Assembly (NCBI GenBank): GCA_913060875.1
Contig: CAJXSL010000017.1
Span: 62,001 to 126,000, forward strand
DNA length: 64,000 nucleotides
Origin: an uncultured Desulfobacteraceae bacterium
Lineage (GTDB): Bacteria > Desulfobacterota > Desulfobacteria > Desulfobacterales > UBA5852
Reading direction: 5' to 3'
Positions 30,863-60,916 of this stretch are shown here, in pieces. How positions within the stretch are numbered: the stretch's first letter is position 1; each line of letters begins with the position of its first letter. Below the pieces are notes generated by a model that was not told the origin of the DNA, ran no database searches, and saw nothing but the letters and a program-made list of their open reading frames with translations. Position numbers and translations under genes: made by a program.

Positions 30863-30870
30863 CATATCCT

Positions 30871-40979: not shown

Positions 40980-42153
40980 AGGCGGCTCCCTTTATTACAT
41001 CGTTTGTAATTTGTCGTTGAAGACCAAGAAGATCCTCGATGTGCTTGGACAACTCGTTTTCACGAGCGCCAATGACTGAGAGCTGTTTTACGATTTCTTT
41101 TTGAACATCAAGGTTGGGAACAAGAAGCTTATGTTGGCGCAGATCCTTCCCGTTGATTTTCCAAATGCCATTAGTAGACTTTGCAAACGCAAGAAGCTTT
41201 CTATGTGTAAATGGATCATTCCATTGCGCCACTGCAAAGTCGGGGAGAACCCTTTCTGCATCGAAAGCTATTCGAATCAGAAGATCGGGGTAAAAACAAT
41301 CCTCCGGAACTTCCGTAACAAGGCCAGCTTTCCCACACAAGCATTTGTTGCCGTTCCCTCTTACGACTAAGATATCCCCAGACCGCAAACGAAACTTCTC
41401 AAGGTTTGGTTGTGAGATTTCGGCAAATTTTGTGTTGCCACTTGGATCGACCTTCCCATCCCTAACAGCGCCAATGCTTAATGTGGGATAGCCAGCACCG
41501 GATGCATTGGTTTTTGGGGAGAATCCATTTCGAGGGGGAATGTTATAAAGCTTGCCGCATATTACTTCGCGAGTTGACTCATGCCGCAAGGACTCTCGGA
41601 GAACTTGACTCTTCACAGCGGTAAGGGAAGTAACAGATTGCTTGAATCTTTCCAACGCCTCATCCGCCACCCACAGGATCTCGGCAAAGCGCTTCTGTTG
41701 ATCAAGGGGCGGCAGCGTTAATTCAAAATCTTTTAATGCCTTCCAACTTGTTCTCGGTGAAAGCGATCCGGCCGACGTATCAAGCGCATGATCGAAAAAC
41801 GCATCGCTCTGGCACAAAAACGGCAAGAGTTCTGGCAGCAGTACCTTTTTATCTTTCGACTCGAACGTCAGGATGTCCCCGGAGCAAATACCTTCAAACT
41901 CGGCATAGGCGACCTTGCGTTGATAGGCTCGACGCTTGCCGAAAAGCGTCTGTCCCGGTACGAATTTGCGGGTAAACGAGGTGCCATTCGCAACGGAGTT
42001 CCATCGCCAAATATGCAGATTTCCGGGGTCGATGTGTTCGAGTCCGACGATTCTTTCAATGTCATTGGCCTCGGGATCACGCTCCACAAGATTGGCGTTC
42101 TTTACCACCTCGCCGAACTTCACCATCTTCCAGCCGGGTTTCAGGATAGTCAT
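40972..42153 (-). CDS. hsdS: Type I restriction-modification specificity subunit
   Basis: 393-residue S subunit with two target recognition domains separated by conserved helices. The first half recovers to LPPLDQQKRFAEILWVADEA (conserved region after TRD1), the second TRD ends with LLVPNLDVQKEIVKQLSVIG. It sets the DNA sequence read by the HsdM/HsdR complex; the site cannot be deduced by eye. It overlaps the RloC-like gene (ATGA) and hsdR by eight bases, so the three are translationally coupled. Confidence 0.92.
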   Translation of the reverse strand: MTILKPGWKMVKFGEVVKNANLVERDPEANDIERIVGLEHIDPGNLHIWRWNSVANGTSFTRKFVPGQTLFGKRRAYQRKVAYAEFEGICSGDILTFESKDKKVLLPELLPFLCQSDAFFDHALDTSAGSLSPRTSWKALKDFELTLPPLDQQKRFAEILWVADEALERFKQSVTSLTAVKSQVLRESLRHESTREVICGKLYNIPPRNGFSPKTNASGAGYPTLSIGAVRDGKVDPSGNTKFAEISQPNLEKFRLRSGDILVVRGNGNKCLCGKAGLVTEVPEDCFYPDLLIRIAFDAERVLPDFAVAQWNDPFTHRKLLAFAKSTNGIWKINGKDLRQHKLLVPNLDVQKEIVKQLSVIGARENELSKHIEDLLGLQRQITNDVIKGAAYV

Positions 42154-44480: not shown

Positions 44481-45966
44481 TTTGGCTCCCCAATACCAGG
44501 AACATTTTGTCCATCGACTCCCGCAATGCCAATGAACTTTCCTGCCAGTTCGCAATGGCCTGCTTGAGACTGACCGTTCCGACCGTCCCATTGCTATTAC
44601 CGTTGTCGTTTTCCACCCGAACGTAGAGCGGAATGCTGAGGTTGCTGCCTTTCTCCCTGATCTCGTCATTGCCGACCACCCGGGCAAAGCCTCCCTCATC
44701 GCCGAAGGACTGGTAAGCGGCAACAATGCGCTGGATGTGTTCGTCGGTGAGGAAGCTCTGTGCCCGCTCGCGGGTCACTTCGTTCACCGCGTTGATGAAG
44801 AGCACCTTGTTCCTGCGCTCTTTGGGTTTGTTCATCCGGCAGATGACGACGCAGGCTTCCATGGGCGAGTTGTAAAAGAGGTTGGGGCCGAGGCCCAGCA
44901 CACACTCCACCACGTCGTGGGCGACCAGCTTCTCACGCATGGCCTGTTCTTCATTGCGGAAGAGGACGCCATGCGGAAACAGAATGGCGCAGCGACCACT
45001 CTTGGCCTTCATGCTCTTGATGATGTGCTGCCAGAAGGCATAGTCGGCGCGGCCCTGGGGCGGGGTGCCGTATATGTTCCGGCCCCACGGATCGGCGGCC
45101 CAGGCATCGCGGTCCCACTGTTTGATGGAGTACGGCGGATTGGCCAGGACCACATCGAACTGCATGAGCCGGTCGCCTTCGACAAAGGCGGGATTGGCCA
45201 GGGTATCGCCCCGAACGATGCTGAAGTCCTCGGTGCCGTGCAGGAACAGGTTCATCCGGCCGATGGCCGATGTGAGCAGATTGCGTTCCTGGCCAAACAA
45301 CTGCAGGTTCCTCCATTCCTTGCTTTGCCGTTTCAGATGGGCGACGGCGGACAGCAGCATGCCCGCGGAACCGCAGGTGGGGTCATAAATCGACTCACCC
45401 GGTTTAGGCTCGAGCATCTCGGTCATCAGATGGACAACTGTGCGGTTGGTATAGAACTCCGCAGCGGTGTGGCCGGAATCGTCGGCAAATTTCTTGATTA
45501 GAAACTCATAACCCACGCCAAGCTCATCCTCCGGGCAGTTGGAGAGTGAAAGCATCTGCGAGCTGAAGTGCTCGATAAGCTCGCGCAGCATGTGGTCCGG
45601 TAGGCGGTCCTTGTTGGTCCACTGGGCGTCGCCGAAGACCCCATAGAGGGTGTCGGGGTTGGCCGTCTCAATCGCCCGCAATGCGTCCTGAATGGCCTTG
45701 CCCACGTTCGTGACCTTGGTACGGGTGGCATACCAGTGGGCGTCTTCCGGGATCTGGAAGCGGTGCTGTTCGGGGAGTGCAGCATATTCCTGATCGCCGC
45801 CGGATTCCTCGAGGGCTTCGGCCAGCTCTTCGACATAGACGTCGCACAAGCGTTTGTAGAACAGTAGCGGGAAAATGAACTGCTTATAGTCTCCGGCGTC
45901 GATGTAGCCACGCAACAAAGTTGCTGCGCCCCAGAGATAGGATTCGAGTTGTGATTGTGAAATCAT
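44473..45966 (-). CDS. hsdM: Type I restriction-modification methyltransferase subunit, copy 2
   Basis: 497 residues from the ATG at 45964-45966 (MISQSQLESYLWGAATLLRG), preferred because it aligns with the start of the neighbouring hsdM; an upstream in-frame ATG runs through a zinc-ribbon gene. The HsdM N-terminal helical domain is followed by SAM-binding motif I DPTCGSAGML and catalytic motif IV NPPYS, so N6-adenine methylation is expected. It is roughly half identical to the other HsdM upstream. Being directly next to rloC-like, hsdS and hsdR, it is the more likely partner of this HsdS. Confidence 0.92.
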   Translation of the reverse strand: MISQSQLESYLWGAATLLRGYIDAGDYKQFIFPLLFYKRLCDVYVEELAEALEESGGDQEYAALPEQHRFQIPEDAHWYATRTKVTNVGKAIQDALRAIETANPDTLYGVFGDAQWTNKDRLPDHMLRELIEHFSSQMLSLSNCPEDELGVGYEFLIKKFADDSGHTAAEFYTNRTVVHLMTEMLEPKPGESIYDPTCGSAGMLLSAVAHLKRQSKEWRNLQLFGQERNLLTSAIGRMNLFLHGTEDFSIVRGDTLANPAFVEGDRLMQFDVVLANPPYSIKQWDRDAWAADPWGRNIYGTPPQGRADYAFWQHIIKSMKAKSGRCAILFPHGVLFRNEEQAMREKLVAHDVVECVLGLGPNLFYNSPMEACVVICRMNKPKERRNKVLFINAVNEVTRERAQSFLTDEHIQRIVAAYQSFGDEGGFARVVGNDEIREKGSNLSIPLYVRVENDNGNSNGTVGTVSLKQAIANWQESSLALRESMDKMFLVLGSQND

Positions 45967-46195
45967 TACACCTGCTTTCTGAAAACCTGAGCCCGCAATG
46001 GGTGCATTCCCACGCTGGGTCATCATCGCTGACACAACAGCCGCCAAGCGCGATCCTGCCTCCATTTATTTTTTGCTCTAACTCCTTATCGAGAGCAGGC
46101 ATGCCATAGAGGATGCTGGCAAGAGGGGTCTTCCCGCATTCAGGACATTTCCTTGGTTTCTGCCCACGTTCTACTCTGGTTGATTTGTTGCTCAT
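45884..46195 (-). CDS. Small zinc-ribbon protein between the two hsdM genes
   Basis: 103 residues. KCPECGKTPLASILYGMPAL, DKELEQKINGGRIALGGCCV, SDDDPAWECTHCGLRF is a widespread small protein pattern with two CxxC zinc pairs. Its tail overlaps hsdM copy 2 by 83 bases in another frame, longer than typical for the family and possibly an addition by readthrough after a lost stop. The function is unknown; these proteins are scattered and often near mobile or restriction genes. It follows hsdM copy 1 by four bases. Confidence 0.65.
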   Translation of the reverse strand: MSNKSTRVERGQKPRKCPECGKTPLASILYGMPALDKELEQKINGGRIALGGCCVSDDDPAWECTHCGLRFSESRCNDFTITTRILSLGRSNFVAWLHRRRRL

Positions 46196-46199: not shown

Positions 46200-47684
46200 T
46201 CAACCCTTCTTTACGAGCAGCGATCTCAGTCGATCCTCGGCCGCATATGCCGCCTGCAGCGATTTCTTGAGGTTGGCAATAGCTTCGTCGATAGTGATGG
46301 ATTCTTCCTCGATCACCGGCTCCACGTAACGCGGTATGTTCAAATTGAAATCGTTCTCGCGGATCTCATCAAGGGCGACCGCTCTGCTTATTCCTTCGAC
46401 ATCCTCGTAGCTCTCATACCAGCGATGGATATTATCCACATGTTCGGGCATCAGTTCATTCTGCGCCCGGCCCTTCTTGAATTCCTTTGAGGCGTCGATA
46501 AAGAGCACTTTCTGCCGATGTGCTTTGGGTTTAGTCTCTCGGAACACCAGAATACAAGCGGCCAGCCCGGTGCCGTAAAAGAGGTTTGGACCAAGACCGA
46601 TCACTGCTTCGAGAATGTCCATTCCAAGAAGCTTTTGGCGGATCTTGCCTTCCTTAGACATGCGAAAGAGCACACCATGGGGGAGAACCACGGCCATTCG
46701 ACCAGTCCGAGGCGCCATTGATTTGATCATGTGTTGCACCCATGCGAAATCACCGGATTTGGCAGGTGGTAGCCCGGCAAAGTTTCGTCCATATGGGTCG
46801 TTTATCCAGACTTCTTCGCCCCATTTTTGGAGAGAAAACGGTGGATTTGCGATAACGCAGTCAAAAACGGCAAGACTGTCACCCGAATAAAACGCCGGTT
46901 GTCGAAGCGTATCACCTCGCTCAACAAGAAAATCCTCTGCGCCGTGCATAAATAGATTCATGCGGGCAATGGCTGATGTAGTGAGATTTTTTTCCTGGCC
47001 ATAGAGCTTACCCAGCATGAGATTTTCATCACCGCCATGCTCCTTGACGTGATGAAGCGCCTCGAGCAGCATGCCGCCAGTTCCACAAGCAGGATCATAG
47101 ATGGTTTCGCCCGCCTGAGGAGCGAGAATCTTCACCATCAATGCAACCACAGCGCGAGGTGTATAAAATTCGCCAGCCTTTTTGTTCGTTAAATCGGCAA
47201 ATTTCTTGATGAGATATTCGTAGGCTTGGCCCAGAACATCTGCCTTGCAATTGATATTGGTAAGTTTGTATTTTGAGAAATGCTCGATGAGGTCTTTGAG
47301 GAGTTTGTCTGAAAGACGGTCTTTGTTCGTCCATTGGGCATCGCCGAAAATCCCATGCAAGGTATCTGGGTTTGCTTGTTCAATGCACCGAAGTGCCTTT
47401 TGAAGGGCATGCCCGATATTGCTGGCCTTCTGCCGGATATCCTCCCAATGACAGTCCTCCGGGACCTGAAATCTGTGATTTTCTGGAAAGCGCGCGTATT
47501 CTACATCCCCATCTGATTCTTTTAGCGCCGCAGCCAGTTCCTCATCGAAAACGTCACAAATGCGCTTGAAAAACAAAAGTGGGAAAATGTAAGTTTTGAA
47601 ATCCGCTGCATCGACTGGACCGCGGAGTATGTTGGCTGACTCCCAGAGCCAGGATTCGAGTTTGGAAAGCTGGATGTCACTCAT
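46200..47684 (-). CDS. hsdM: Type I restriction-modification methyltransferase subunit, copy 1
   Basis: 494 residues from the ATG at 47682-47684; a TTG one codon earlier is possible. The N-terminal domain (LSKLESWLWESANILRGPVD) precedes SAM motif I DPACGTGGMLLEA and catalytic motif IV NPPFS, both intact. It is a diverged paralogue of copy 2, with no second hsdS in reach. It may pair with the same HsdS as a heterodimer, or belong to a separate module with the helicase-nuclease encoded just upstream (40 bases away). Confidence 0.92.
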   Translation of the reverse strand: MSDIQLSKLESWLWESANILRGPVDAADFKTYIFPLLFFKRICDVFDEELAAALKESDGDVEYARFPENHRFQVPEDCHWEDIRQKASNIGHALQKALRCIEQANPDTLHGIFGDAQWTNKDRLSDKLLKDLIEHFSKYKLTNINCKADVLGQAYEYLIKKFADLTNKKAGEFYTPRAVVALMVKILAPQAGETIYDPACGTGGMLLEALHHVKEHGGDENLMLGKLYGQEKNLTTSAIARMNLFMHGAEDFLVERGDTLRQPAFYSGDSLAVFDCVIANPPFSLQKWGEEVWINDPYGRNFAGLPPAKSGDFAWVQHMIKSMAPRTGRMAVVLPHGVLFRMSKEGKIRQKLLGMDILEAVIGLGPNLFYGTGLAACILVFRETKPKAHRQKVLFIDASKEFKKGRAQNELMPEHVDNIHRWYESYEDVEGISRAVALDEIRENDFNLNIPRYVEPVIEEESITIDEAIANLKKSLQAAYAAEDRLRSLLVKKG

Positions 47685-47724
47685 CAACCGGTAACCTTTT
47701 TGCCATATTCCATTTGAATTAATT

Positions 47725-50700
47725 TCAATTCGTATTCAACCAATCTTTGACTTGACGTACACAGCGACCGAGGTCATCTCTAATTTGATATACCCAGAAC
47801 CGCTTCACATCCCAACCTAGTTCCATCATACGTTGATTTCGAATTTGGTCCCGACGGCACAACTCACCATCCCAATTTCGATGATACCTTTCGCCGTCTA
47901 CCTCGATGTTAAGCTTCCTTTTTCCATCAACGACAGCGAAATCGAGAATATATTTTTCTATTGGATATTGAGGAATAGGTCGAATACTAGCCTGGTAGAG
48001 CGCTCGGTAAAATAGGTGTTCCCATTCGGAAACGAGCTCGGGATTATCAACCGGAGGGTACTCGGGCCCGTAATCAATCGCCTCGACGGGAACATCCTGA
48101 TGCGTATTTGACCTCAACCGGTCAGAATAAGCCGCAAAACTCGAGAGGTAATCAACTTCACATTTTAATGAGGCGCTTTGATCTCCAACAACGATTAGAG
48201 CGGCTCGTGCCCGGGTAATCGCGACATTGAATAGATTAGGATTGCCCCTTAAAAATCCTATCGCTCCTCTGCTTATGCCGCTAGATACGACAGGCGAAAA
48301 AATCATTACATCTCGTTCATCGCCTTGGAACTTGTGAACAGTATCAGCAAGAAAATCAAAGTTGGAAAGTTGTGATGTAAGTGAACGATGATTGTGCACT
48401 AAATCCCGAATGCGATTTGCTTGTGCCCTGAACGGACTTACAACACCAATGCTCCCCTGATATCCTTGGCTCGCCAGTCGCTCTATTTCAGAAATGACAG
48501 CGAAGGCCTCTCGATCATTAACTGCACCACCATTCGCCGGCCGCTTAACTGCGCCCTCGACATTGATCCACCGTACCGCAGGCCCATCAGTGTATGGTCG
48601 TTTGAGGCGATCATATTTGGTAGCAACCCTTAGCCGTCCTTCATAAAATTCATCATTGGAAAACTCGATGATATCCGCGTGCGAGCGATGGTGATCACGA
48701 AGTGCGATTATATCCTCACTTCGACAAAGGCTGCTTGCTAAATCAAACAAAGATCTATGTGAATACGCCCATCCTGGATACTCATCGATAAGGTTATGCC
48801 TTGAGAGCAATTGCTGATCTTGTTGACGCGTCAAGGTGCTAATATGGCGCAATTGCATGGGGTCACCAATCACAACCGCATTTTTAGCGCGATAGAGCAA
48901 AGGCAGTACGGATGCGATGTCACACTGGCTAGCTTCGTCGATGACCACCAAATCGAAAAAGCCAGATTCAAATGGGACACGTCCCCTCGCTGATAAGGAA
49001 GTTACTGCCCAGCATGATAAAATGGATGTGATTTGAGGAAAAAGTTGATAGTACCTACGAAAAACATCTCTGCGGAGATTTTGATTATTTTCATTCGCAG
49101 ATATGATCATCTGCAGAATTGCGCTATAATCACCCAATAGTTTACGCTGCTCTGGCGTCATTCTTGATGGCTGCAACCGAAGCCAAGCATTCCACAAATC
49201 TTTTGAGTTTGATGATAGTTCATCTGTCAACTGTATCTGTAGTTGGCTTATTTTCTCAATAGATTCAGAGTGATTCAGTTTTTGAAGGCTTTCAAAGTAG
49301 CTGCGAATAGGCCGAACATCATCCAGCCTATTTTTCAGCTCTTTGCCATATTCTATCCAATATCCAATCGTATTTTTATCCGGATCACTTCCTTTGAATG
49401 GCAGGTTGATTCGTGTAGCGAATTCGCTAAAGGTATCCCTTGCCGAACTAAATTCTTTGAAACGGCGCTTTCGGATGATCGGCCATATTAACTTTTTCAT
49501 CAAACTTTGTTGGCTTTTATCACAAGCGGCAAGATGGCATAGAAAGGTTTCTGCCGATTGGTTCAACTGCTCTTCATTAATGTTTTGTATTATACTGAAG
49601 CAATCAGGGCCAACTTTCTGACGGATGTGTTCAACAGCTTGCTCTAGTTGGTCAACCTCATTCCGTAGGGCGATTAAAGAGTTCAAGCGGTTATCAAGCT
49701 CAGATGACTTCTCGCAGATTTTTGAATGAATTTGTTTGCAATCATTGTAACGACTTTGTTCGTCTTTATCTGCTGAGGCAGCAAGGAGAGTTGTTAAATA
49801 GGCAGCCAGTTTATTTTGATATTGATTCGCCCCAAGGCGAAGCAGCACAGGACGCGGCCCAAGAGAATTGACCCTTACTTCAACAACATCAACGGCTTTA
49901 TTGTTCTTGCTAACGAATAATACCTTTCTATTTTGCCAGGCCGCATTAACCAGAATAGATGTAACGACCTGTGATTTACCTGTTCCCGGAGGACCGGTTA
50001 TGACAGTTAGAGGTTGTGACAAGCTTTGACGCACGGCTTGTCGTTGTTCAGTGTTTAACGGGAGAACCTCTATTAGTGGGGTTGGTTTTTCCAAAGAATG
50101 AGAATTGGGATTGCCATCCCTAAGCCATGCACCAATGACAGTATCCCCATATTTCGCCTCAGGGATAGTCTGAAGCATGCCGAGTTCTGTTTCTAACCCT
50201 TTGGTATAAGGGGATCTTTCCGCTGCTACAAGAACCGCACGATTATAAATGCCTTGCTCGCCAATACCTGAGATAGCAGCACCGTTAGTTAAAGAATCAG
50301 GATCCGGATTCTCTTTCCAGTCCCAATCGTATCGGACGTCATACAAGCGCGCCATCAACTCATCTAAATCAGGCTGATCACCACTAGCGTTTCCTAAACC
50401 CAACTCATCAGCCAATTGAATCGCCTCTTCCATGATCGTCGCATCGCCTGCATTCGAAAGAGACTTCAATGCTCGGAAATTTAGATGGGGCAGCTCTTCA
50501 GACAAAATTGGTGGGCTGTATCGATCTGATGGATCCTGGAAGGAAATCAACAATATCGGTTCGAGGATAAACCCTTCCCAACCTTTTCGGGAACGAATTT
50601 TTTTTAACCGTATGGGATAACCAATAAAGATGGATTGGCGATTTCGATCACGCCGCATCCTTGTGAGTATTCTCTTACCAGCTTCCGACTCGAAAAGATC

Positions 50701-51069
50701 AACATCGCATCCTTCGATCATTGGCAAAGATTGGAGTTCCGCATAGTCCGGCTCACCATATTTAGACTCGGCAAAAACACTAACACCGCCAAGATCATCC
50801 TGGTTTAAGCAATCAAGATAATAGGCGCAAAGTCTGGATAAAGGTGTATCCAGACGTTCCGGTCTTTTGGGTTTTCGTTCATCCACTCCTTCAGTATCTT
50901 TAAGATACCAACGATAACTCTTGTCTTGTTTGACCTTTCCTCGTAAACGCCCATACAATAAAGAGTTAATTTGTTTACGATCTATCTCAATTATATCAGC
51001 AATTTGTTTTGCCTTTATTCCTGGTTTTTCTTGAATTACAGATAATATTTTTTGCTCTAAATTGCTCAT
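47725..51069 (-). CDS. SF1 helicase fused to Vsr/DUF559-like nuclease
   Basis: 1114 residues. A short winged helix at the N-terminus (KQIADIIEIDRKQINSLLYG), a family-specific region to about 320, then an Upf1/Dna2-like SF1 helicase: Walker A ITGPPGTGKSQVV, a long coiled-coil insert, motif II VVIDEASQCD, motif III GDPMQLRHIS, and motifs IV-VI VVSPFRAQANRIR, DTVHKFQGDERDVM, NVAITRARAALIVVGD. The last 100 residues form a very short patch repair-like nuclease (YILDFAVVDGKRKLNIEVDG, with ERYH). This is the layout of several single-gene or RM-linked defence helicases; I cannot name the exact system. It is the first large gene after riboswitch 2. Confidence 0.85.
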   Translation of the reverse strand: MSNLEQKILSVIQEKPGIKAKQIADIIEIDRKQINSLLYGRLRGKVKQDKSYRWYLKDTEGVDERKPKRPERLDTPLSRLCAYYLDCLNQDDLGGVSVFAESKYGEPDYAELQSLPMIEGCDVDLFESEAGKRILTRMRRDRNRQSIFIGYPIRLKKIRSRKGWEGFILEPILLISFQDPSDRYSPPILSEELPHLNFRALKSLSNAGDATIMEEAIQLADELGLGNASGDQPDLDELMARLYDVRYDWDWKENPDPDSLTNGAAISGIGEQGIYNRAVLVAAERSPYTKGLETELGMLQTIPEAKYGDTVIGAWLRDGNPNSHSLEKPTPLIEVLPLNTEQRQAVRQSLSQPLTVITGPPGTGKSQVVTSILVNAAWQNRKVLFVSKNNKAVDVVEVRVNSLGPRPVLLRLGANQYQNKLAAYLTTLLAASADKDEQSRYNDCKQIHSKICEKSSELDNRLNSLIALRNEVDQLEQAVEHIRQKVGPDCFSIIQNINEEQLNQSAETFLCHLAACDKSQQSLMKKLIWPIIRKRRFKEFSSARDTFSEFATRINLPFKGSDPDKNTIGYWIEYGKELKNRLDDVRPIRSYFESLQKLNHSESIEKISQLQIQLTDELSSNSKDLWNAWLRLQPSRMTPEQRKLLGDYSAILQMIISANENNQNLRRDVFRRYYQLFPQITSILSCWAVTSLSARGRVPFESGFFDLVVIDEASQCDIASVLPLLYRAKNAVVIGDPMQLRHISTLTRQQDQQLLSRHNLIDEYPGWAYSHRSLFDLASSLCRSEDIIALRDHHRSHADIIEFSNDEFYEGRLRVATKYDRLKRPYTDGPAVRWINVEGAVKRPANGGAVNDREAFAVISEIERLASQGYQGSIGVVSPFRAQANRIRDLVHNHRSLTSQLSNFDFLADTVHKFQGDERDVMIFSPVVSSGISRGAIGFLRGNPNLFNVAITRARAALIVVGDQSASLKCEVDYLSSFAAYSDRLRSNTHQDVPVEAIDYGPEYPPVDNPELVSEWEHLFYRALYQASIRPIPQYPIEKYILDFAVVDGKRKLNIEVDGERYHRNWDGELCRRDQIRNQRMMELGWDVKRFWVYQIRDDLGRCVRQVKDWLNTN

Positions 51070-51409
51070 ATAATTTTTGATGCCTGCTTCGAATCGATAA
51101 TCGCTATTTAGCCAGAATTTTTGTAAGCAAACTCAATTTAGCTTGTCCAATAGCACAATAAACCATTTAGTTAAGGGCAGTTTGATTGCACATAACTAAA
51201 AGAGTAGAAACAATTCACCAAAACTATGATGCCGGCAATTCCTAAATACGCGCTGTGATGAACAGCTTTAGGTGTGATGTTAATGAACTGACTTAGGATA
51301 TGATGGATGCCTATGCCTATCATATGTACCATGTCTTGTAACTATCTATCTCTCAAGCCGGAATTGTCAAATGAAATTAACAAAATAGATAAAATCGCCC
51401 ATTATTGTC
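51070..51409. other. Leader region between riboswitch 2 terminator and helicase gene
   Basis: About 340 bases of low-GC sequence on the path from the riboswitch to the helicase start. It contains a possible 53-codon frame (annotated separately) and, on the minus strand, TTGACA followed by weak -10 candidates near 51345-51370, so an independent promoter downstream of the riboswitch cannot be excluded. Confidence 0.45.
51171..51332 (-). CDS. Possible 53-residue membrane peptide downstream of riboswitch 2
   Basis: Minus-strand frame from the ATG at 51330-51332: MVHMIGIGIHHILSQFINIT, then a hydrophobic segment LGIAGIIVLVNCFYSFSYV before the stop. The composition is that of a small single-pass protein. 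No clear ribosome-binding site is seen and no family is recognised. It is the first frame after the c-di-GMP riboswitch terminator, so if real it would be the first gene under that control. Confidence 0.3.
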   Translation of the reverse strand: MVHMIGIGIHHILSQFINITPKAVHHSAYLGIAGIIVLVNCFYSFSYVQSNCP

Positions 51410-51450
51410 AAAAAAAAATACCGGATTGTCTTAGGTCGACAAGCCGGCAC
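51410..51450 (-). terminator. Intrinsic terminator, expression platform of riboswitch 2
   Basis: On the minus strand GCCGGCTTGTC pairs with GACAATCCGGT around CGACCTAA (one bulge), followed by a run of nine T (51411-51419 are A on the plus strand). It starts 12 bases after the aptamer. The long T-run and strong stem make it a convincing terminator, presumably alternating with a ligand-dependent fold. Confidence 0.85.
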
Positions 51451-51462
51451 TAATTTATTAAT

Positions 51463-51528
51463 GGCAACCCGGCTTTCTCTGAAAGATCCGTGGCTTTCCG
51501 TCCTCGGCTCACGCCGAGTTTGGCTTTG
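51463..51528 (-). promoter_or_regulatory. Cyclic di-GMP-I (GEMM-I) riboswitch aptamer 2
   Basis: Read on the minus strand: AAAGCCAAAC, stem CTCGGC/GCCGAG with GNRA loop GTGA, GGACGGAAAGCCACGGATC, P3 loop, AAAGCCGGGTTGCC. Conserved GEMM-I positions match aptamer 1, including G20 (c-di-GMP type) and the C21-G46 pair, while P2 and P3 stems differ in sequence but keep pairing, which is evidence for a functional fold. It lies upstream of the helicase, double-hsdM RM and zorABCD genes on the same strand, and downstream of sbcC. Confidence 0.92.
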
Positions 51529-51725
51529 TTATGTAATTATCTAAAAATTTTATTTTTATCCCCATACTTACCCCACGTCAACCCACCCAATGCCCGTTTA
51601 AAACCCATGTGTATTTTACATTTAAAATTAGATAGTTGCGATATAAACCAATACAACCCCATATTTACAGACTTCGTTGAAAGCACCAATACCCAATGGT
51701 CAAGTAGAACCGAATCAATAAAAAA

Positions 51726-54700
51726 CTACAGTTTTCTGCAACCTGGTCCTGTTATTAAACCTCTGCCACCGGTTTGAGGGGTCACAGCAATTCGTGTGGA
51801 TATCCGCTCTTTTAGAGCTGGCACATGTGAAATTAACCCAATAATTTTTCCTTCCTGTTGTAAACCTGCGAGGGTCTCGAGCGCCGTGTCTAAAGCCTCC
51901 TCATCCAGGGTCCCGAAACCTTCGTCAAGAAACAATGAGTCAACCCGAACGTTTTTGCTTGCCATTTGGGACAAGCCAAGGGCGAGTGAGAGGCTGACGA
52001 TGAAAGACTCACCGCCCGAGAGATTCTTTGTGGACCGGATCTCGCCAGCCTGATAATTGTCAACCACGTTGAGTTCCAAGGGTTGTTCATCATCACGAAT
52101 CAACAAATACCGGTCGCTCATTTTTTGCAGCTGAAGATTGGCATGGCCAACCATCAATTCAAAGGTCAGCCCTTGGGCAAAGTTGCGGTATTTTTTCCCA
52201 TCATTCGAACCGATCAATTGGTGAAGATTGTCCCATCTACGGCACTCTTTTTTCTGGCCGTCAATAGCGGCTTGCTTTGCCTTTACCCGCTCTTTGGCTG
52301 CGGTGTTTTCACTCAGCTTGTGCTTTAGACTGGCCATACTGTCCCGCAGTTCAATCAGAGAATCTTCGTACTCTTTTAATATTGGCTCCAGTTCCTCGAG
52401 AGATTTGTCGGTAACTTTCCTGGCTATTTCCTCGGCCAAACGTGTTTCTCGATCTTTTTGCCTGGCATTGAGGACAGTTTGGCTGTCATCTAGCTTCTTA
52501 GCCTTTGCACCCAACTCATCCCTATGCTCAGCTGTCAGTCTGGCCTTAAGAAACTGTTCTTCATCCGAAAAACCTACAGGTTCAAGCGCAGCGGAAAATT
52601 CAGTTTCCGACTTTTTCAGATCTGGCTCTCTCTGGGCAATGCGCTTTTTCAAAGATTCGACATTGGTCTTTGCGTTGTCCCATTTTTTCTGTAGTTCACT
52701 GTGCAGATCCCTGGCTTTCTTTTCCGCGTAATCGGCCTCAGAGATCGCCTTGTTCAAGCGGCGCTCCTCAACGTCCGGATTTTTGTCGCCGTACAATTCT
52801 TTTCGCTCGTCAGTTCCGTCTACGAGTTCCTTTTGCAAGGTCTCCAGACTTTCTTTTTTCTCGGCCAGTGCAATTTGTTGAGTTTCGATAACCGCGCCCA
52901 GACTCTTCACCTCACTGTCGAGATCGGCAATCTTTTTCTCGATTTCAGTCTTTTTCTTAACCTTGGACTTCCACTCATTCATCCGCGCTCTGAGTGACTC
53001 AAGCAGTGATGAAATATCTCCATCGGGGATTTCCTTGATGCCAAGCGGCAGGAGCTTGGCCAAGGCGGTCTGCCTGCGTTCGTCAAAATCAATCTGGAGT
53101 TTCTCCAGGCCTTCTTTCACGTCGGCGAGAGCTTTCTCGGCTGCCTTCTTGTCATTAGCAGCTAGTGCCTCCTGCTTTTCACCGTCTGTCAGATTCCTTT
53201 GGGCCGCGACTTCCGATTCTTCAAGCTTTTTGACAGCGCCGTCCTGGTCTTCAGCCTTGCTGATCAGTTTTTTGAGTGATTCAATCTGCTTTTCTGTTTC
53301 ATCGGGGGTGGGAACGTTGCCTTCCGCAAATGGGTGTTCTGTTGCACCACAAAGCGGACAGGGTTTGCCATCTTCCAGTTTGGCCCGGTGGTCTTCAAGC
53401 TCAGCTATTTTTGCTAACAAAGTCATTTCACGTAGCAGGGTTTCCATTTCGGTGCGGTATTCACGCAACAGTCGCCCCGCCAGCAACTGTCTTAACGCAT
53501 CTTTGCCTTGCTGGAGATTCTTAGTCACTTTCTCCAGTTCCTGTCTCAAAGTGCCGCATTGTTTCTGACGATCACCAAGCGATTTCATCGCCTGCTCCAG
53601 AACCTTCACAGCCTTTTCTCGATCGTCCTTTTTTTGGATGATTTCTTTTTGCTTGTCTAACAGTATGTTCAACTGCTCTTCAACACCGGCCAGGCCACTG
53701 ATCAGCCATTCGTCCTTTGCATTCTCCTCAAAATATCTGTCAATACCCCGGAGCTTTTTTTGGGCTTTGGAATGTTTTTCCCGTTCCTTAAGCCAGGCCT
53801 GTTTATCTGCGTCAATCTTTGCCAAATCTTTTTGGCAGGTTTCTTCGACTTCCGAAACAGCCTTTTTTTGATCGGCAAGCTTCTGATCAAAGGAACGAAC
53901 CTTCTGAAGGATCGGTGCAGCAGCTTGCAGTTCCGCTTTAGCCTTGAATAATTGCTGTTCAGCCATCTTAAACGATTCGGCTTGTTCTTTGGCAGAGAAT
54001 TCCAACTCTGGAAGGGTTTCTTCCTCACTTTTCAGTGCCGCCTGGTCACCCGCCTGTTCTTTTCGAATTGCTGTGAGTGTTCCGTATGAGCCATCAAGTG
54101 ACGCTGCGCTTACAGCCCGGCTCAATTTGTCGCGTTCTGGTTTAAATGCCTCTATAGCGCTTTGAAGCTCACTCGCTTCGTCTGCCAGACTGGCGATTTC
54201 CTTCTTAAGGCCATCTATGGCGGTCAGCCATGTAATGGCCTTTCCTGTGTCAGCCAACTTGCTGTTGAGATCTGTCTCTTCTTTCTGCTTTGTGTCGAGT
54301 GCCTGTTGGATCTCTATTTCCTGTTCCGGCTCCAGGATCACGATTCCTGCCGTTTCAACCTGTAGGATGTCAAGCTTATCCCGTTCTTCTCGCCTTCGCT
54401 CATGGACACGGGTGGATATCAGGCTGTAAATTTCCGTGCCTGTTATCTGTTCCAGGATCGGTGCCCGTTCTCCAGGATCAGCTTTCAGGAAAGCCGAAAA
54501 GCCGCCCTGGGCCAATAGCATGGATCGGGTAAACCGATCGAAATCCATTCCCGTGGCATCTTCAATTTTTTCGGCCACCCTTCGAATTTTGGTCTCGATA
54601 ATTTTCCCCGAAGTTGCGTCTGCAATTTCATGTTTAGGTGCCTGCAGTTCACCCGTAGGGTTTTTCCGTGCCTTGTGTTGACTCCAATGGCAACGAAACA

Positions 54701-54971
54701 GGCCCGCTTGGGTTTCGAAGGTTACCTCTGAAAAACATTCGCCTGTCTGGCGGGACATGATTTCGTTTAAGCTCTTGGTGACCTTGTTCAGTCTTGGGGT
54801 GCGCCCATAAAGGGCCAAACAAATGGCGTCGAGTATGGTCGATTTTCCGGCACCAGTTGGCCCGGTAATGGCAAAGATCCCGTCCGAGGTGAAATCCTGA
54901 TGCGTAAGATCGACTTCCCACTCACCGACAAGAGAATTCAAATTTTTCAATCGTATTTGCAGTATCCGCAT
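51726..54971 (-). CDS. sbcC: Exonuclease subunit SbcC (Rad50-like)
   Basis: 1081-residue SMC-like ATPase that with SbcD cuts hairpins and protein-blocked DNA ends. Walker A GPTGAGKSTILDAIC near the N-terminus, long coiled coils on both sides of a zinc hook KPCPLCGATEHPF (about 540), and at the C-terminus the signature NLSGGESFIVSLSLALGLS, Walker B SLFLDEGFGTLDEEALDTAL and ISHVPALKERI. Full length and intact. It is 9 bases after sbcD. The last tens of residues (TPQTGGRGLITGPGCRKL) are slightly variable as usual. In this context it may be an anti-phage or recombination partner rather than the housekeeping copy. Confidence 0.95.
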   Translation of the reverse strand: MRILQIRLKNLNSLVGEWEVDLTHQDFTSDGIFAITGPTGAGKSTILDAICLALYGRTPRLNKVTKSLNEIMSRQTGECFSEVTFETQAGLFRCHWSQHKARKNPTGELQAPKHEIADATSGKIIETKIRRVAEKIEDATGMDFDRFTRSMLLAQGGFSAFLKADPGERAPILEQITGTEIYSLISTRVHERRREERDKLDILQVETAGIVILEPEQEIEIQQALDTKQKEETDLNSKLADTGKAITWLTAIDGLKKEIASLADEASELQSAIEAFKPERDKLSRAVSAASLDGSYGTLTAIRKEQAGDQAALKSEEETLPELEFSAKEQAESFKMAEQQLFKAKAELQAAAPILQKVRSFDQKLADQKKAVSEVEETCQKDLAKIDADKQAWLKEREKHSKAQKKLRGIDRYFEENAKDEWLISGLAGVEEQLNILLDKQKEIIQKKDDREKAVKVLEQAMKSLGDRQKQCGTLRQELEKVTKNLQQGKDALRQLLAGRLLREYRTEMETLLREMTLLAKIAELEDHRAKLEDGKPCPLCGATEHPFAEGNVPTPDETEKQIESLKKLISKAEDQDGAVKKLEESEVAAQRNLTDGEKQEALAANDKKAAEKALADVKEGLEKLQIDFDERRQTALAKLLPLGIKEIPDGDISSLLESLRARMNEWKSKVKKKTEIEKKIADLDSEVKSLGAVIETQQIALAEKKESLETLQKELVDGTDERKELYGDKNPDVEERRLNKAISEADYAEKKARDLHSELQKKWDNAKTNVESLKKRIAQREPDLKKSETEFSAALEPVGFSDEEQFLKARLTAEHRDELGAKAKKLDDSQTVLNARQKDRETRLAEEIARKVTDKSLEELEPILKEYEDSLIELRDSMASLKHKLSENTAAKERVKAKQAAIDGQKKECRRWDNLHQLIGSNDGKKYRNFAQGLTFELMVGHANLQLQKMSDRYLLIRDDEQPLELNVVDNYQAGEIRSTKNLSGGESFIVSLSLALGLSQMASKNVRVDSLFLDEGFGTLDEEALDTALETLAGLQQEGKIIGLISHVPALKERISTRIAVTPQTGGRGLITGPGCRKL

Positions 54972-54980
54972 AAGCAGTCC

Positions 54981-56231
54981 CTATTCAGCCATGGCATCGT
55001 CTTCCTGGAGTGACGCGACGATTTCATGATAGGCGTGGAAAAGATATGAACGTTGCTCTTCCGGCACTTCGTGGGCCGATAGGCAACGCTCGAAAACATC
55101 GTCAACGGTCAGATCGTCGAGGGTTTCTTGGCGATGCGTTTGGTTCAACACCCTTTCGACGATTCTGTTGTTTTTTACGCGCAGTATCTCAAGTCCGGAG
55201 CCGGCAATAAGAGCGTCCAGCCGTTCGCGCAAATCACCGATGATCTCATCGCCTTCATAGACGATCTCCACCCATGCTGAAGATCCAGTATTTGATAACT
55301 CTTGGAGTCGCTCCGAAATATCATCCCAACTGCCGTTGATACTTTCCAGTTCTTGAAAAACAGGCACTTTGATTTGCTCTACATCAACTTTGGTGCTCGC
55401 AAACTTTACCAAACAGACACTTTTTTCTTGCTTTGCTTCTCCGAATCCAACCGGAATGGGGGCGCCACTATAGCGAACGATATCCGAATTATTTACCTTT
55501 TGGGGCACATGCAGGTGGCCAAGAGCTACATAATTCACGCTGTCCGGAAAAATGCCGGCATCGACGTGGGCCATCGAACCCACGTACAGTTCCCTCACGC
55601 CATCACCATCGACTGTTTTGCCCCCTGCAGTGTAAAGATGCCCCATAGCGATAATGGGTATTTCGGCGTCCAGCTTTGCGCGTTTTTGTTCGGCTAACTT
55701 GACGATGTCTTTATAGTGACTGCGAATGCCCTCGGTGATTTTATTTTGTTTGTCTGCAATGCTTTCACCAGCCTCAGCCATGCGTATCTCCCGGTCACGC
55801 AGATATGGCACAGCGCAGACAATAGCCTCCGGTGAATCAGTTTCATTGCCAAGTACAAGGATTTCGTCTTCCAGGTTTCCTGAAGTTGCACCGACCACAT
55901 GAACGTTTAGGGCTTTGAGCAGTTCCTGAGGCGCATTGATGAAGGAAGGAGAATCGTGATTGCCCGCTATTACCACCACATGACGACAGGTAGAGGCGGC
56001 TACCCGACATAGAAAACGGTAATATAGCTGCTGAGAACGGTTGTTAGGGGCGCTTGTGTCGAAAATGTCCCCTGCAACAAGTAATGCATCAACCTCCTTC
56101 TGCTGTATGGTATCGGATAACCAATTAAGAAATAACTCGAACTCATCGTATCGCTTTCGGCCATATAGAGACCGACCGATGTGCCAGTCCGAGGTGTGCA
56201 GAATCTTAAATTGGTGCTTTTCGTCCCGCAT
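54981..56231 (-). CDS. sbcD: Exonuclease subunit SbcD (Mre11-like)
   Basis: 416-residue metallophosphoesterase nuclease. Metal-binding motifs are present: LHTSDWHIGRSL, LLVAGDIFDTSAPNN, VVIAGNHDSP, and later MGHLYTAGG and LGHLHVPQKV. The C-terminal capping and SbcC-binding region follows (SINGSWDDISERLQEL, VDDVFERCLSAHEVPEEQRS). The ATG at 56231 is 61 bases after mcrC. Together with sbcC it forms the complete nuclease-ATPase pair within a defence gene run. Confidence 0.94.
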   Translation of the reverse strand: MRDEKHQFKILHTSDWHIGRSLYGRKRYDEFELFLNWLSDTIQQKEVDALLVAGDIFDTSAPNNRSQQLYYRFLCRVAASTCRHVVVIAGNHDSPSFINAPQELLKALNVHVVGATSGNLEDEILVLGNETDSPEAIVCAVPYLRDREIRMAEAGESIADKQNKITEGIRSHYKDIVKLAEQKRAKLDAEIPIIAMGHLYTAGGKTVDGDGVRELYVGSMAHVDAGIFPDSVNYVALGHLHVPQKVNNSDIVRYSGAPIPVGFGEAKQEKSVCLVKFASTKVDVEQIKVPVFQELESINGSWDDISERLQELSNTGSSAWVEIVYEGDEIIGDLRERLDALIAGSGLEILRVKNNRIVERVLNQTHRQETLDDLTVDDVFERCLSAHEVPEEQRSYLFHAYHEIVASLQEDDAMAE

Positions 56232-56292
56232 TATTTTCTCCGCTATTCGACCTAATTCAAAGTCATGCCATCTGAAACTTCAATTTGATTAC

Positions 56293-57354
56293 CTAATTCG
56301 GCCTCGCAACATCCAACAACTGCTTTAGATCGTGATAAATTGCTTGCCACTCCTGGTTCATATTAATCGTACGGATCATAACCTTGTGGCCGTCCATTTT
56401 ATAACTCAGCCTTAGTTCCTTTTGGACCGTCGGGTACAGCAAAACCCCTGTGCAATTGGTATTGATGCCACCTTGCTTTTCAAGATTTTTTAGATAGGCG
56501 AAAATTTGGTATATATTCTGGGCGTGAATCTTTTCGGTGTCATAGTGAGTAGATAGAGCTTGCTTGTAATACTTGGTATCGATAACAGCCTTGAACCCGT
56601 GGCCTTCGATTGAGATGTCGGTGACCATTTTAGGCAAAAAGGCCATTGATTGATCATCCAAGGCCTCGGCCTGCCAAAGGATGTCCTCCCGCCCGACCTT
56701 AAAGCCAGTGGTTTCTAACTTGTAAAAATTACGCACGAAATCCTCGAAAAGGGCCGCCATGCGCATTTCGTCATCCTGCAGAAAGTCACGAAATTTGCTT
56801 TTTCCTTGTGTTTCGGAGGGCAGGAGGTTCTCGTAAACCAGCTCGCAAATCTTCAGCAGGAAGTCATAGAAAGCGTTGTTGCGGTGGAGTTGTACGCGGC
56901 TGAAAACTGCGCTGGACAATTCGATTTTGTCCACTTCGAGAAACCGACGATACAACCCAATCAGCCTGTCCTTCAATTTTCTGTCCAGGCTCTCGACCCG
57001 AATAAGGTTGTGCATTGTTGTTTTGATGATCTGGTTGTGTAAGACATTATGGCTCAGCTCGTCGAACTCGCAGTGAATCTGGGCTTTCATGAGGAGGTTG
57101 CGCTTGATAGTAGGGCTGAACAATAGTTTACCCCGCAAACAGCGCGTGTCCTCGGCATATTCGACATAGCCACGATCCAGGCCGCGTCGTAAAAGGCGCT
57201 CGACTCCCCCACACAGCACTTTGGCGAACAGATCCACCAAACTGGTGGTGTCGATACCGGATACATCTACGACATCACGCTCTTCGAGCCGATTCCAGGC
57301 ATAACAAAGCAGGTAATAAATGTTTTGAATGGGAATTTTGCGGGCGTTATTCAT
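56293..57354 (-). CDS. mcrC: McrC-like nuclease subunit of a modification-dependent restriction system
   Basis: 353 residues of the McrBC 5-methylcytosine restriction subunit family. The N-terminal region has IPIQNIYYLLCYAWNRLEER, typical of the LlaJI/McrC group, then LRGKLLFSPTIKRNLL, HCEFDELSHNVLHNQIIK, and a C-terminal PD-(D/E)XK core MVTDISIEGHGFKAVIDTKY (Asp, Asp-x-Lys). The start overlaps the last base of mcrB. It gives the cleavage activity when the McrB ring recognises modified DNA. Confidence 0.92.
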   Translation of the reverse strand: MNNARKIPIQNIYYLLCYAWNRLEERDVVDVSGIDTTSLVDLFAKVLCGGVERLLRRGLDRGYVEYAEDTRCLRGKLLFSPTIKRNLLMKAQIHCEFDELSHNVLHNQIIKTTMHNLIRVESLDRKLKDRLIGLYRRFLEVDKIELSSAVFSRVQLHRNNAFYDFLLKICELVYENLLPSETQGKSKFRDFLQDDEMRMAALFEDFVRNFYKLETTGFKVGREDILWQAEALDDQSMAFLPKMVTDISIEGHGFKAVIDTKYYKQALSTHYDTEKIHAQNIYQIFAYLKNLEKQGGINTNCTGVLLYPTVQKELRLSYKMDGHKVMIRTINMNQEWQAIYHDLKQLLDVARPN

Positions 57355-59810
57355 CAGAACAGCTGCTCAACCCTCTTCTGGACCTTGTCAGGATCGTCGA
57401 ACCAGTACTCTTCGAGGAGGGGTTCGATTTCAGTTCGGATCACATTCTCGTACCAGTCACTCCCATACGCTTGGTTGTTATCTGAGGGACAAAAATAGCT
57501 GTGGCCGACGCAATAGCCGCGACCGAGGTTTTTCTGGTCCTCGGTGATGCGTTGGTTGAGCTGCCCCATCCGCTCTATAATCTTGTCGATGATCTCAGTT
57601 TCAACGCCGGCGTTTGTGAGAAAATCCCGGAATTTTTTGCTCTCGAATGCTGGCTTAAGATCGATGAAACAAAAGCGGCGCCGGAGAGCATAGTCGACCA
57701 TGGCAAGAGATCGGTCGGCCGTGTTCATGGTGCCGATAATGAAAATGTTACTAGGGATAAAAAAGGTGTCGTCCAATCCCTGTGCGTAGGTCAACGGCAT
57801 GGCGTAGTCTGCGCCACGCTTGTCGGCCTCGATCAACATGAACATTTCACCGAAGATCTTGCTCAAATTGCCGCGGTTGATTTCGTCGATAATAAACACA
57901 TAGGGGTTTTCAGGATCGCGTTGGGCTTTACGGCAGAAATCATAAAAGGCCCCATTTCGTAGATCGAACTTGCCCTCACTGTTGGGCCGAAACCCCTGCA
58001 TGAAATCCTCGTAAGAATAGGACTGGTGGAACTGAATCATGGTCACCCGGCGCTTGTCCGCTGCCCCCATCAAGGCATAAGCGATATGACGTGCGATAAA
58101 AGTTTTCCCGACTCCAGGCGGGCCTTGAAGGACCAGATTCTTTTTGAGTTTGATACGGTCAAGGATCTGATGGAATTTTTCGTTGTTAATGAAAATGGAT
58201 TTCAAGGCTTCTTCAATTGAATAAGGACCTTGAACTGGATCAATAGGCATATTTTTCTCATCTAACAGGGATCGCATGGTCTCGTATTCGGCAGGCGTTA
58301 GTTTGAATAGACTGCCCTGATTATTTTTAAGCGGTTCGCAGTCACTTAATTCGGGAATCGCCCTCAACTCTTCAAAAGACACCGTTTCGAGGAACTGGTC
58401 CGTCTTTTCGAACTCGATCCCCAGTCCCTCCATGGTCTCGTGAAGCCCCCTGGTGACCCGGCATTCGGCAACAATCTCCCGGTTAGGCGAGGCGACGTAA
58501 CCGATGATGGTGTCGCCAGACGCTACAGCCTCGAAATGCTTGAAGATGCGCCGTTTGTTTCCTTTTGCGTTGTAGGCTGTGTAAATCTGTTTCTCCCCTA
58601 CAGGGGTTTCGATAAAGTTCCAGATTTTGGGATTAGCGTTCAACCACCAGAAATTTCCTCCCGTTGACGGTTTCGGCTGAGATACATTTATCTCGGTTAA
58701 CTCGAGTAACTTTCGTATAAAGTCCTTATACTGAGTTATGTTGGTAAGGGTTTTAAGAGCCGGAGTCTCTCCTTCAATCTTCCAAGTTCCCTTCCGGAGC
58801 CATTTAACATTACGGACATTTTTCTTTTCTTGGCGATCTTCATCAAAATAGTACTCAGAATCGACGATACCGACGCCTACGATTTCTTTAATTCCCTTTT
58901 TTGCAAAGATGTAATCGCCCTCTTTCATGACATGGCAGAATTCATAGCAGGCCAGAGCGCGGTTAAATGGCTTGGCACCGTAATCGTATATTTCCGAGAG
59001 AGCATCCTGAATCTGTGGCTTCGACTGATATTGAGTCAGATCGCCGAGCTTATCCCAACCAATTCCCATAATGCCTTGCTCGAAAAAGTCCTGAAATAGG
59101 CTCGCATTTTTACCTGGCGAAAAAGTCCAGTACTGTACCTCGTCATCAACTTTGTTTTCCAGAAGCTTGAACATGAAACCCAGGGTATGAACATCCAGAA
59201 GGTTACCATCTTCGAGACCGTGCCCTTTTGAAAGATGCTGTAACAACTCCTTATAGATCTCCCGGCAGTGCATAATACGTTCGACCGGCTCGACCTTGCG
59301 CTCAGTCCAATCAAAAAGGTTTTTTATGAAAAACTCGTAAACAGATGGTTTGCAAAATGGATATTCGGAGGGTGATGCCATTGCCAGAAAATAGCTGCAA
59401 ACGGTTCCGTTAATCCCCGATTTCTTGCCGGATTCAGCAGATGGCTCAACTTTCGACCATTCGGAAAACGCTCTCAGCCTTTCCTCAAGAGGAGTCGCGC
59501 CGTAGAGTAGATCCACAATGCGAGAGCCCAGTTCGCTCTCGTCTACATGCCCCACAAAGTGCCGTGCGAAGCTGCCCTCATAAATTGCCAAAAGACCACT
59601 ATTTGCACTTATAACCTTGAGCAAATTCTCTTTCGGGCTCTTTTCAAGCAAGTCCCTTTCAAGATATGGCGATGCTTTCTTTAGCGCATCCCGCTGAACA
59701 AACATCTCACCGCCACCTTGCCGTAGCTCCCACTCGTCGATCTGTTTTTCCCACCTTGGTTTGGCATAATTTTCTATCAGCTCGTCGAACCGTTCCAGAT
59801 TCAATTGCAT
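57354..59810 (-). CDS. mcrB: McrB-like AAA+ GTPase with two PUA/EVE-like reader regions
   Basis: 818 residues. About 1-220 is a helical region; 227-345 (YWTFSPGKNASLFQDFFEQG, GDYIFAKKGIKEIVGVGIVD) and 386-480 (FWWLNANPKIWNFIE, ASGDTIIGYVASPNREIVAE) both look like PUA-superfamily/EVE base readers. The AAA+ motor follows: Walker A GPPGVGKT (563-570), FHQSYSYEDFMQGFRP, Walker B VFIIDEINRGNLSKIFGE and MNTADRSLAMVDYALRRRF, the McrB GTPase signature. Two reader regions on one chain are unusual; they may recognise a bulky modified base such as glucosylated or methylated cytosine. mcrC follows immediately. Confidence 0.9.
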   Translation of the reverse strand: MQLNLERFDELIENYAKPRWEKQIDEWELRQGGGEMFVQRDALKKASPYLERDLLEKSPKENLLKVISANSGLLAIYEGSFARHFVGHVDESELGSRIVDLLYGATPLEERLRAFSEWSKVEPSAESGKKSGINGTVCSYFLAMASPSEYPFCKPSVYEFFIKNLFDWTERKVEPVERIMHCREIYKELLQHLSKGHGLEDGNLLDVHTLGFMFKLLENKVDDEVQYWTFSPGKNASLFQDFFEQGIMGIGWDKLGDLTQYQSKPQIQDALSEIYDYGAKPFNRALACYEFCHVMKEGDYIFAKKGIKEIVGVGIVDSEYYFDEDRQEKKNVRNVKWLRKGTWKIEGETPALKTLTNITQYKDFIRKLLELTEINVSQPKPSTGGNFWWLNANPKIWNFIETPVGEKQIYTAYNAKGNKRRIFKHFEAVASGDTIIGYVASPNREIVAECRVTRGLHETMEGLGIEFEKTDQFLETVSFEELRAIPELSDCEPLKNNQGSLFKLTPAEYETMRSLLDEKNMPIDPVQGPYSIEEALKSIFINNEKFHQILDRIKLKKNLVLQGPPGVGKTFIARHIAYALMGAADKRRVTMIQFHQSYSYEDFMQGFRPNSEGKFDLRNGAFYDFCRKAQRDPENPYVFIIDEINRGNLSKIFGEMFMLIEADKRGADYAMPLTYAQGLDDTFFIPSNIFIIGTMNTADRSLAMVDYALRRRFCFIDLKPAFESKKFRDFLTNAGVETEIIDKIIERMGQLNQRITEDQKNLGRGYCVGHSYFCPSDNNQAYGSDWYENVIRTEIEPLLEEYWFDDPDKVQKRVEQLF

Positions 59811-60244: not shown

Positions 60245-60830
60245 TCATCTACAGAGCTCCGCCACGCTTTTTGTGACCCAATCAAATCCCACACGTTCTT
60301 GTTCGAACCGTAGCTGGTCACTCAACCGATTGTACCGGAGATCATCATATAGCGCTTGCTCCTCGGGATCCAACCGCGGCAGCTCCCGGATTTCCTGGCG
60401 CGGCTCACGTTCCCAGAGGCTCCTGTGGGCCGAGAGGGTGTCACGGTCCATGAGGAAAGACCGCACTTGCGGAAATAGACTGCGCAGCTGATTGAGGATG
60501 GCGAACCCGTGGGTGTCGATGTCGCCCCAGTAAAAAAGACGCCGGTCGCACAGCCAGCGAGCCCGGCAAAGGTGTCGTGGGTGACCGCGATGTTCTGATC
60601 CGTGCCAGTGGGAAAGACCGCCAAGGCGTCGTCCAGAATCCGAAATCGCACCCGCACGGGCTTGTTGTCCACAAACCCGTAACGCCGGCAGAACCCGGAC
60701 ACGCCGCCGGCCTCTTTGTCGACCGTTTCATCTGGCAATACCAAATCGAACAGTTCCGTCAGCACGGATCGGTGGCCTTCAATGAACTTGCTGTGAACCC
60801 CGGGATGTCCACCTGGCGCAGGTACAGGCC
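60245..60830 (-). pseudogene. jetD: Decayed jetD (Wadjet nuclease) remnant
   Basis: Two minus-strand frames together match JetD/DUF2220, the TOPRIM-type nuclease subunit of Wadjet. The upstream part reads GVHSKFIEGHRSVLTELFDL, VLPDETVDKEAGGVSGFCRR, YGFVDNKPVRVRFRILDDAL, THDTFAGL. The frame then shifts near 60555, and the downstream part reads RWLCDRRLFYWGDIDTHGFA, ILNQLRSLFPQVRSFLMDRD, PEEQALYDDLRYNRLSDQLR to a stop at 60245-60247. About 40 residues expected between FAGL and RWL are missing, and the N-terminal domain is gone. No jetA, jetB or jetC lies in the window. Confidence 0.8.
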
Positions 60831-60916
60831 TGGGCTCGGGTGTTGGCGCATGTGTGGGGATGAACCGCACCCCCTCCAGAATTCGTGGTTTGGTAGTGTT
60901 TGTTCTTCTTATTCGC

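Follow-up and report, generated by a model that had tools for sequence, protein, structure and literature searches.

Does a c-di-GMP riboswitch control the long run of defence genes that lies downstream of it in this Desulfobacteraceae contig? To our knowledge, the regulation of defence islands is largely unknown, and the window analysed here (the whole stretch of 64,000 nucleotides) carries an RNA element of a familiar class at the head of such a run. The initial annotation had proposed that the c-di-GMP level decides whether RNA polymerase, including readthrough from mcrBC-sbcDC, enters a 20-kb defence block. Our analysis supports the aptamer type and the operon-like nature of the block and adds the recurrence of the arrangement in sister genomes, while the gating of the polymerase is a plausible proposal and a single transcript of 20 kb a putative one.

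A c-di-GMP-I aptamer followed by a separate terminator

A cmscan search of the whole window placed a c-di-GMP-I riboswitch aptamer at 51459-51533 on the minus strand, a span that encloses the GEMM-I aptamer initially read at 51463-51528 (-). The match scored 65.6 bits with RF03167 (E 3e-13) and 62.7 bits with RF01051, the family for which an Infernal search had been suggested. A second aptamer, absent from the initial annotation, was found at the opposite end of the block at 30869-30943 (-) and scored above the first, with 71.6 bits for RF03167 (E 5.4e-15) and 70.7 bits for RF01051. Both exceed the gathering scores of the two families (59 bits for RF03167 and 35 bits for RF01051) and, lying on the same minus strand, they bracket the defence genes. 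The closest aptamers to the one at 51459-51533 within its own genome are 81-85% identical across about 60-70 nt. Between sbcC and this aptamer, the intergenic region at 51534-51725 (-) contains a weak promoter-like site (TTGACG-18-AAAAAT at 51581-51552).

The strong terminator that had been suggested at 51410-51450 was also recovered. It is an intrinsic terminator at 51417-51450 (-), separate from the 3′ strand of the aptamer, and consists of the hairpin GUGCCGGCUUGUC-GACCUAA-GACAAUCCGGUA followed by a U run. The 141-nt aptamer-terminator region folds with -43.1 kcal/mol (z -4.1), and none of 200 shuffled sequences was as stable. Aptamer and terminator are held together in the minimum-energy fold of the 51417-51533 region, in which the terminator is compatible with the folded aptamer; at both ends of the block, the terminator forms separately with the aptamer intact. 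Moreover, the 5′ arm of the first terminator (GCCGGCUUGUC) resembles the 3′ strand of the aptamer and can pair with it (AAGCCGG:CCGGCUU). In a series of folds, aptamer strands sequester this 5′ arm at lengths of 98-110 nt, at which the 3′ arm has not yet been made. The candidate antiterminator comprises 7 bp, is 1.7 kcal/mol less stable than the best fold of a transcript of this length and is no better than chance. Since complementarity of such strength arises in 14% of shuffles, the antiterminator of the window is a prediction only, and in the four defence cases taken together (individual values 0.08-0.26) the complementarity between aptamer and terminator is not clearly above chance.

An operon-like block of defence genes

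The first gene after the riboswitch, at 47725-51069 (-), encodes a helicase-nuclease with an SF1 AAA_11/AAA_12 helicase and a DUF559/MTES_1575 nuclease. It is followed on the same strand by a first hsdM (46200-47687 (-); PF02384, PADLOC MTase_I), a small zinc-ribbon protein of 103 aa (45884-46195 (-)), a second hsdM (44473-46065 (-), with a true start probably further downstream at about 45974), an RloC-like AAA_13 ATPase (PDC-S06; 42150-44726 (-), its true start probably downstream of 44726), hsdS (40972-42153 (-)) and hsdR (38028-40979 (-)). Then come zorA (35713-37998 (-); PADLOC ZorA 5.6e-26), zorB (35009-35716 (-); ZorB 6.9e-39), zorC with its EH_Signature (33805-35004 (-)) and zorD (31025-33970 (-); ZorD 5.3e-241), and these four genes are assigned to Zorya by the presence of zorA, zorB and a zorD-type helicase in one operon. 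This gene list agrees with that read initially from the sequence; Pfam and PADLOC support it throughout except for the zinc ribbon, which is recognised by its CPECG and CTHCG motifs and has weak Pfam matches below the cut-off. The overlaps and short gaps described earlier were likewise seen, the largest gap measuring about 134 nt and the other genes overlapping or lying closer. Terminator-like hairpins inside the block number 21, compared with 20.5 expected from shuffled sequence. Judged by its layout, the 20-kb block is operon-like.

Upstream of the aptamer, a same-strand run of sbcC, sbcD, mcrC and mcrB (51726-59810 (-)) is a possible source of readthrough. A 53-codon ORF that includes a hydrophobic stretch lies between the terminator and the helicase gene at 51171-51332 (-); it is without a clear ribosome-binding site and may be due to chance.

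Recurrence ahead of other defence operons in the family

The riboswitch is real, and within the family this is not the only case of such an element leading a defence island. In a genome of the same genus (G001), a c-di-GMP-I riboswitch (RF01051, 48 bits) with a terminator lies 324 nt ahead of a complete Wadjet type I operon, in which jetA, jetB, jetC and jetD follow in order (E 1.9e-228, 9.9e-95, 0 and 2.4e-155 for the proteins of locus L182). The aptamer has several broken pairs; in its fold series, a clear CCGGGUU:AACCCGG antiterminator is present at 95-110 nt and the terminator once the full length is reached, which is clearly the layout of an OFF-switch. This operon is also island-borne. 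The tRNA end is repeated exactly over 29 nt about 38 kb from the matching tRNA-Leu context, and the repeat reveals an island in the same tRNA as in the window.

In a genome of a sister genus (G005), the same tRNA-Leu context is followed on the same contig by Wadjet with a 90% identical JetA. The 3′ half of the aptamer and the platform are kept upstream at 78% identity, and an assembly gap (NNN) falls within the aptamer. In the same genome, a further aptamer is followed by a terminator of its own, separate from it, and lies about 760 nt ahead of genes for a HEC-01A/mad3-like ATPase, a type III methyltransferase, a RhuM-like protein and a type III restriction enzyme; this aptamer is flanked by Ns and reaches 38.6 bits with RF03167, below the cut-off of that family. 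Both the C163 and the C91 aptamers of G005 are interrupted by Ns. Furthermore, a c-di-GMP-I riboswitch (RF01051, 43.6 bits) at L268:1616-3118 (G005:C266) precedes a toxin-antitoxin pair of the Panacea type, made up of a 123-aa ORF and the gene for an antitoxin-like protein (Panacea/SocA plus HTH).

Altogether, 4 of the 47 listed matches from the family stand in front of defence or toxin-antitoxin operons, compared with none of about 100 outside the family (one-sided exact value about 0.01), a comparison that is indicative only, as it was set up after the cases had been seen and the family genomes are related. The recurrence ahead of other defence operons favours a real link between riboswitch and defence. 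A broader reading, which we put forward tentatively and regard as somewhat unlikely, is that this one family has repeatedly put c-di-GMP-I riboswitches to use as OFF-switches for islands of defence genes (Zorya/type I RM, Wadjet, type III RM and toxin-antitoxin), such that immunity would be repressed at high c-di-GMP, in the sessile state, and released when the level falls.

Proposed gating of the block and possible bypass

For the window itself, the best reading, which we consider an evenly balanced proposition, is that 51417-51533 (-) is a c-di-GMP-I OFF-switch with a transcription-terminator platform that acts on one input to the block, with promoters further downstream probably giving basal expression. 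At low c-di-GMP, nascent aptamer strands (AAGCCGG, or the 5′ AAGCC) would pair with the 5′ arm of the terminator, and with this arm sequestered the polymerase would enter the helicase-nuclease/type I RM/Zorya block. At high c-di-GMP, the aptamer would be held, the 5′ arm would be free and the terminator could form. The input modulated in this way could be a leader promoter, readthrough from mcrBC-sbcDC or both, whereas promoters past the terminator would probably supply basal expression. In the family, defence operons may repeatedly have acquired riboswitches of this kind at their heads, and several of these are island-borne.

Bypass by downstream promoters is a serious rival to the OFF-switch, to which we accord a sizeable minority share of the probability. 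According to this explanation the aptamer is real, but it closes off the mcrBC-sbcDC transcript or is a leftover leader; the block is driven by promoters past the terminator and c-di-GMP has little effect on defence. Two promoter-like sites lie directly past the terminator at 51341-51411 (-), TTGACA-18-TATTTT at 51411 and TTGACA-18-GATAGT at 51370. They are the best minus-strand matches of the region and possibly riboswitch-independent promoters, and they fit a scenario that the initial annotation itself had raised against gating, namely promoters independent of the aptamer. They are, however, consensus matches only, weak ones in a region whose overall match count is near chance. The distance of 390 nt from the end of the aptamer to the start codon of the helicase gene also fits a bypass, as only two of the 98 loci used for comparison exceed it (median 72 nt), and so do a terminator that forms with the aptamer intact and the failure to find a strong antiterminator. 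A precedent exists in C. difficile cdi1_4, where most of the antitoxin RNA comes from a second promoter, P2, that lies downstream of the riboswitch (PMC7699646). On the other side, sister genomes have the arrangement ahead of defence operons that are unrelated to one another, which would not be expected if the aptamer were a mere relic.

Predicted direction of the switch and its probable ligand

The initial annotation had given no direction for the switch. According to a study of two such riboswitches (PMC9262584), aptamer and terminator folds are mutually exclusive in the pilM riboswitch of Geobacter, an ON-switch, and can coexist in the Cd1 riboswitch of C. difficile, an OFF-switch. Because the fold of the window riboswitch accommodates both elements together, in the manner of Cd1, we predict that it would be OFF at high c-di-GMP.

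The opposite direction, an ON-switch like most relatives in the genome in which the bound ligand stops termination, appears improbable to us. It is the commoner layout in the riboswitch sample: in about 40 of the 62 clear platforms, the 3′ strand of the aptamer (AGCCGGGUUGCC) doubles as the 5′ arm of the terminator, so that the terminator cannot form while the aptamer is bound (the underlying tally by script gave 42 overlapping, 20 separate and 18 without a terminator, and misassigned as overlapping the hairpin of the window, which is locus L008, and probably also L014). In the window, the 3′ arm of the terminator still pairs with the 3′ strand of the aptamer better than chance (p 0.006). However, the separate 5′ arm, located 3′ of the aptamer, pairs with it more stably (-18.2 compared with -15.2 kcal/mol), and the ligand would for this reason not block termination.

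For the ligand, we used Vc2 numbering of the pocket positions (20, 47 and 92), which we take to apply to the window aptamers. The cmscan alignment has G at position 20 and A at position 47 in both of them; the equivalent of C92, judged from GGGUUGCC, is less certain than these two. We assume that G20 marks the c-di-GMP form and A at position 20 the 3′,3′-cGAMP form (GEMM-Ib), and the latter mark is absent from both window aptamers. Also absent from both is a G after ACGC (model ACGCGAA), presumably the residue that defines the c-di-GMP-I-GGC variant RF03167; they read ACGGAAA in its place, and we have filed them as c-di-GMP-I in general on this account. The pocket looks canonical although RF03167 scores slightly above RF01051, and from these residues c-di-GMP is the most likely ligand of both aptamers. 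That the aptamer at 51459-51533 senses another ligand (3′,3′-cGAMP or that of a further variant), through which a phage-triggered nucleotide could control the block, is very improbable: the top clan score does belong to the variant model and Geobacter has cGAMP-type GEMM-I relatives (PMC9262584 and PMC8835794), but G20 with A47 makes a canonical c-di-GMP pocket, the RF03167 consensus departs from it with G at position 47, and the RF01051 score nearly equals that of RF03167.

Riboswitches, helicases and Wadjet loci elsewhere

The aptamer as such is ordinary in its genome and its neighbours are unusual. The genome (5.88 Mb) contains 14 aptamers over the RF03167 cut-off and 18 over that of RF01051, an abundance that the initial annotation had not noted; they lie mostly ahead of genes for exported proteins. 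In a sample of 291 genomes of the class, c-di-GMP-I aptamers were present in 197. Two sets of loci served as controls. For 61 high-scoring ones, 3 of them from family genomes, 101 downstream proteins were searched by HMM, and for a lower-scoring set of 41 only the start of each protein was inspected; no RM, Zorya or Wadjet operon was recognisable in either. Targets of the control riboswitches were PEP-CTERM, Fn3 or PKD domain, cytochrome, pilus and flagellar proteins, and the first gene encodes a hydrophobic N-terminus in 77 of 96 cases. A class-wide association of riboswitches with defence was not seen, PADLOC giving only kinase-like, mad6-like and TnpB/Cas12f-like matches with one member each.

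A conserved pairing of riboswitch and helicase was also rejected, as nine further genomes of the class have homologues of the helicase-nuclease with no aptamer found nearby, several with short upstream DNA. Those from other phyla, at 49-61% identity (Synergistaceae, Verrucomicrobiaceae and Sulfurimonas MAGs), are stand-alone genes, and none of the RM or Zorya genes of the window had homologues in their examined flanks. Since the helicase-nuclease homologues stand alone and lack an aptamer, we regard the block as a stack of separate modules. For Wadjet, no general link was found, no aptamer reaching threshold in the flanks of about 1.5 kb of 30 jetA loci of the class outside G001, with the G005 copy broken by its gap. 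Phage-borne spread of riboswitch copies was considered too and rejected; a pattern scan of viral contigs gave five matches, and the first ORFs next to them included no recognisable defence gene.

Two further observations concern other riboswitches of this class. One in the own genome (L083:6457-8088; G000:C1:690456) has an ON layout, lies in a mobile region with a resolvase and an integrase nearby and precedes genes of 112 and 384 aa that lack a Pfam or PADLOC match. In related genomes, c-di-GMP-I aptamers follow one another head to tail in groups of four to five (G040:C75:11273-11672, G110:C122:8549-8972, G090:C78:127168-127512 and G177:C45:364056-364417).

Relation to known systems

The c-di-GMP-I class itself is already known, and the defence targets are apparently new and lineage-specific. 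Cd1 (Cdi1) of C. difficile shares with the window a c-di-GMP-I aptamer, a terminator that coexists with the ligand-bound aptamer and OFF logic (PMC9262584); it differs in its flagellar target genes and in an antiterminator and ligand binding that are demonstrated, where both are only predicted here. The riboswitches cdi1_4 and cdi1_5 of C. difficile prophages likewise lie on a mobile element ahead of a toxin-antitoxin component and are followed by an extra promoter (PMC7699646). Their target, however, is a short antisense RNA (the type I antitoxin RNAs RCd11/RCd12), unlike the multi-gene RM, Zorya and Wadjet targets in the window and family. RCd22-abiF, also from C. difficile, has a structured leader RNA with a terminator ahead of a defence gene (PMC12373285), but this leader is the RF03085 abiF motif with no known small-molecule ligand rather than a c-di-GMP aptamer. 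Within the order, riboswitches ahead of PEP-CTERM and exported-protein genes belong to the same aptamer family, several of them in the own genome, but most have short leaders and an ON layout in which aptamer and terminator are mutually exclusive.

Searches of the open, journal-published literature turned up no description of RM, Zorya or Wadjet under the control of a c-di-GMP riboswitch. If true, the control proposed here would be the first by a small molecule-sensing RNA for these three systems, as far as that literature shows. Immunity in these bacteria may be tied to lifestyle through a c-di-GMP sensor, and raising or lowering c-di-GMP should then alter readthrough into the defence genes. 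Moreover, riboswitch-led defence operons suggest that mobile islands adopt regulatory RNAs of their hosts.

The second riboswitch and the surrounding island

The aptamer at 30869-30943 (-) sits between zorD and a rhomboid gene. It has its own separate intrinsic terminator at 30824-30862 (-), with a hairpin of -18.8 kcal/mol, and its apparent target is the rhomboid-TPR protein gene at 29226-30782 (-) (PF01694, 8.5e-25). Homologues of the rhomboid gene elsewhere had no aptamer nearby.

The left end of the genomic island is marked by tRNA-Leu(gag) at 10136-10222 (+) and a tyrosine integrase gene at 10245-11540 (-); a search for the right-hand att repeat up to the contig end did not find one. The island of G001 in the same tRNA-Leu (C50:60846-98900) is a different one and carries Wadjet. 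A remnant of the Wadjet gene jetD, about 71% identical to jetD of G001, lies in the window upstream of mcrB at 60322-60993 (-). Downstream of the rhomboid gene, the genes at 22150-27985 (-) encode a DnaB-like helicase with a possible primase part, a family A DNA polymerase with an exonuclease and a 402-aa unknown protein, which make up a replication-like or uncharacterised defence-like module.
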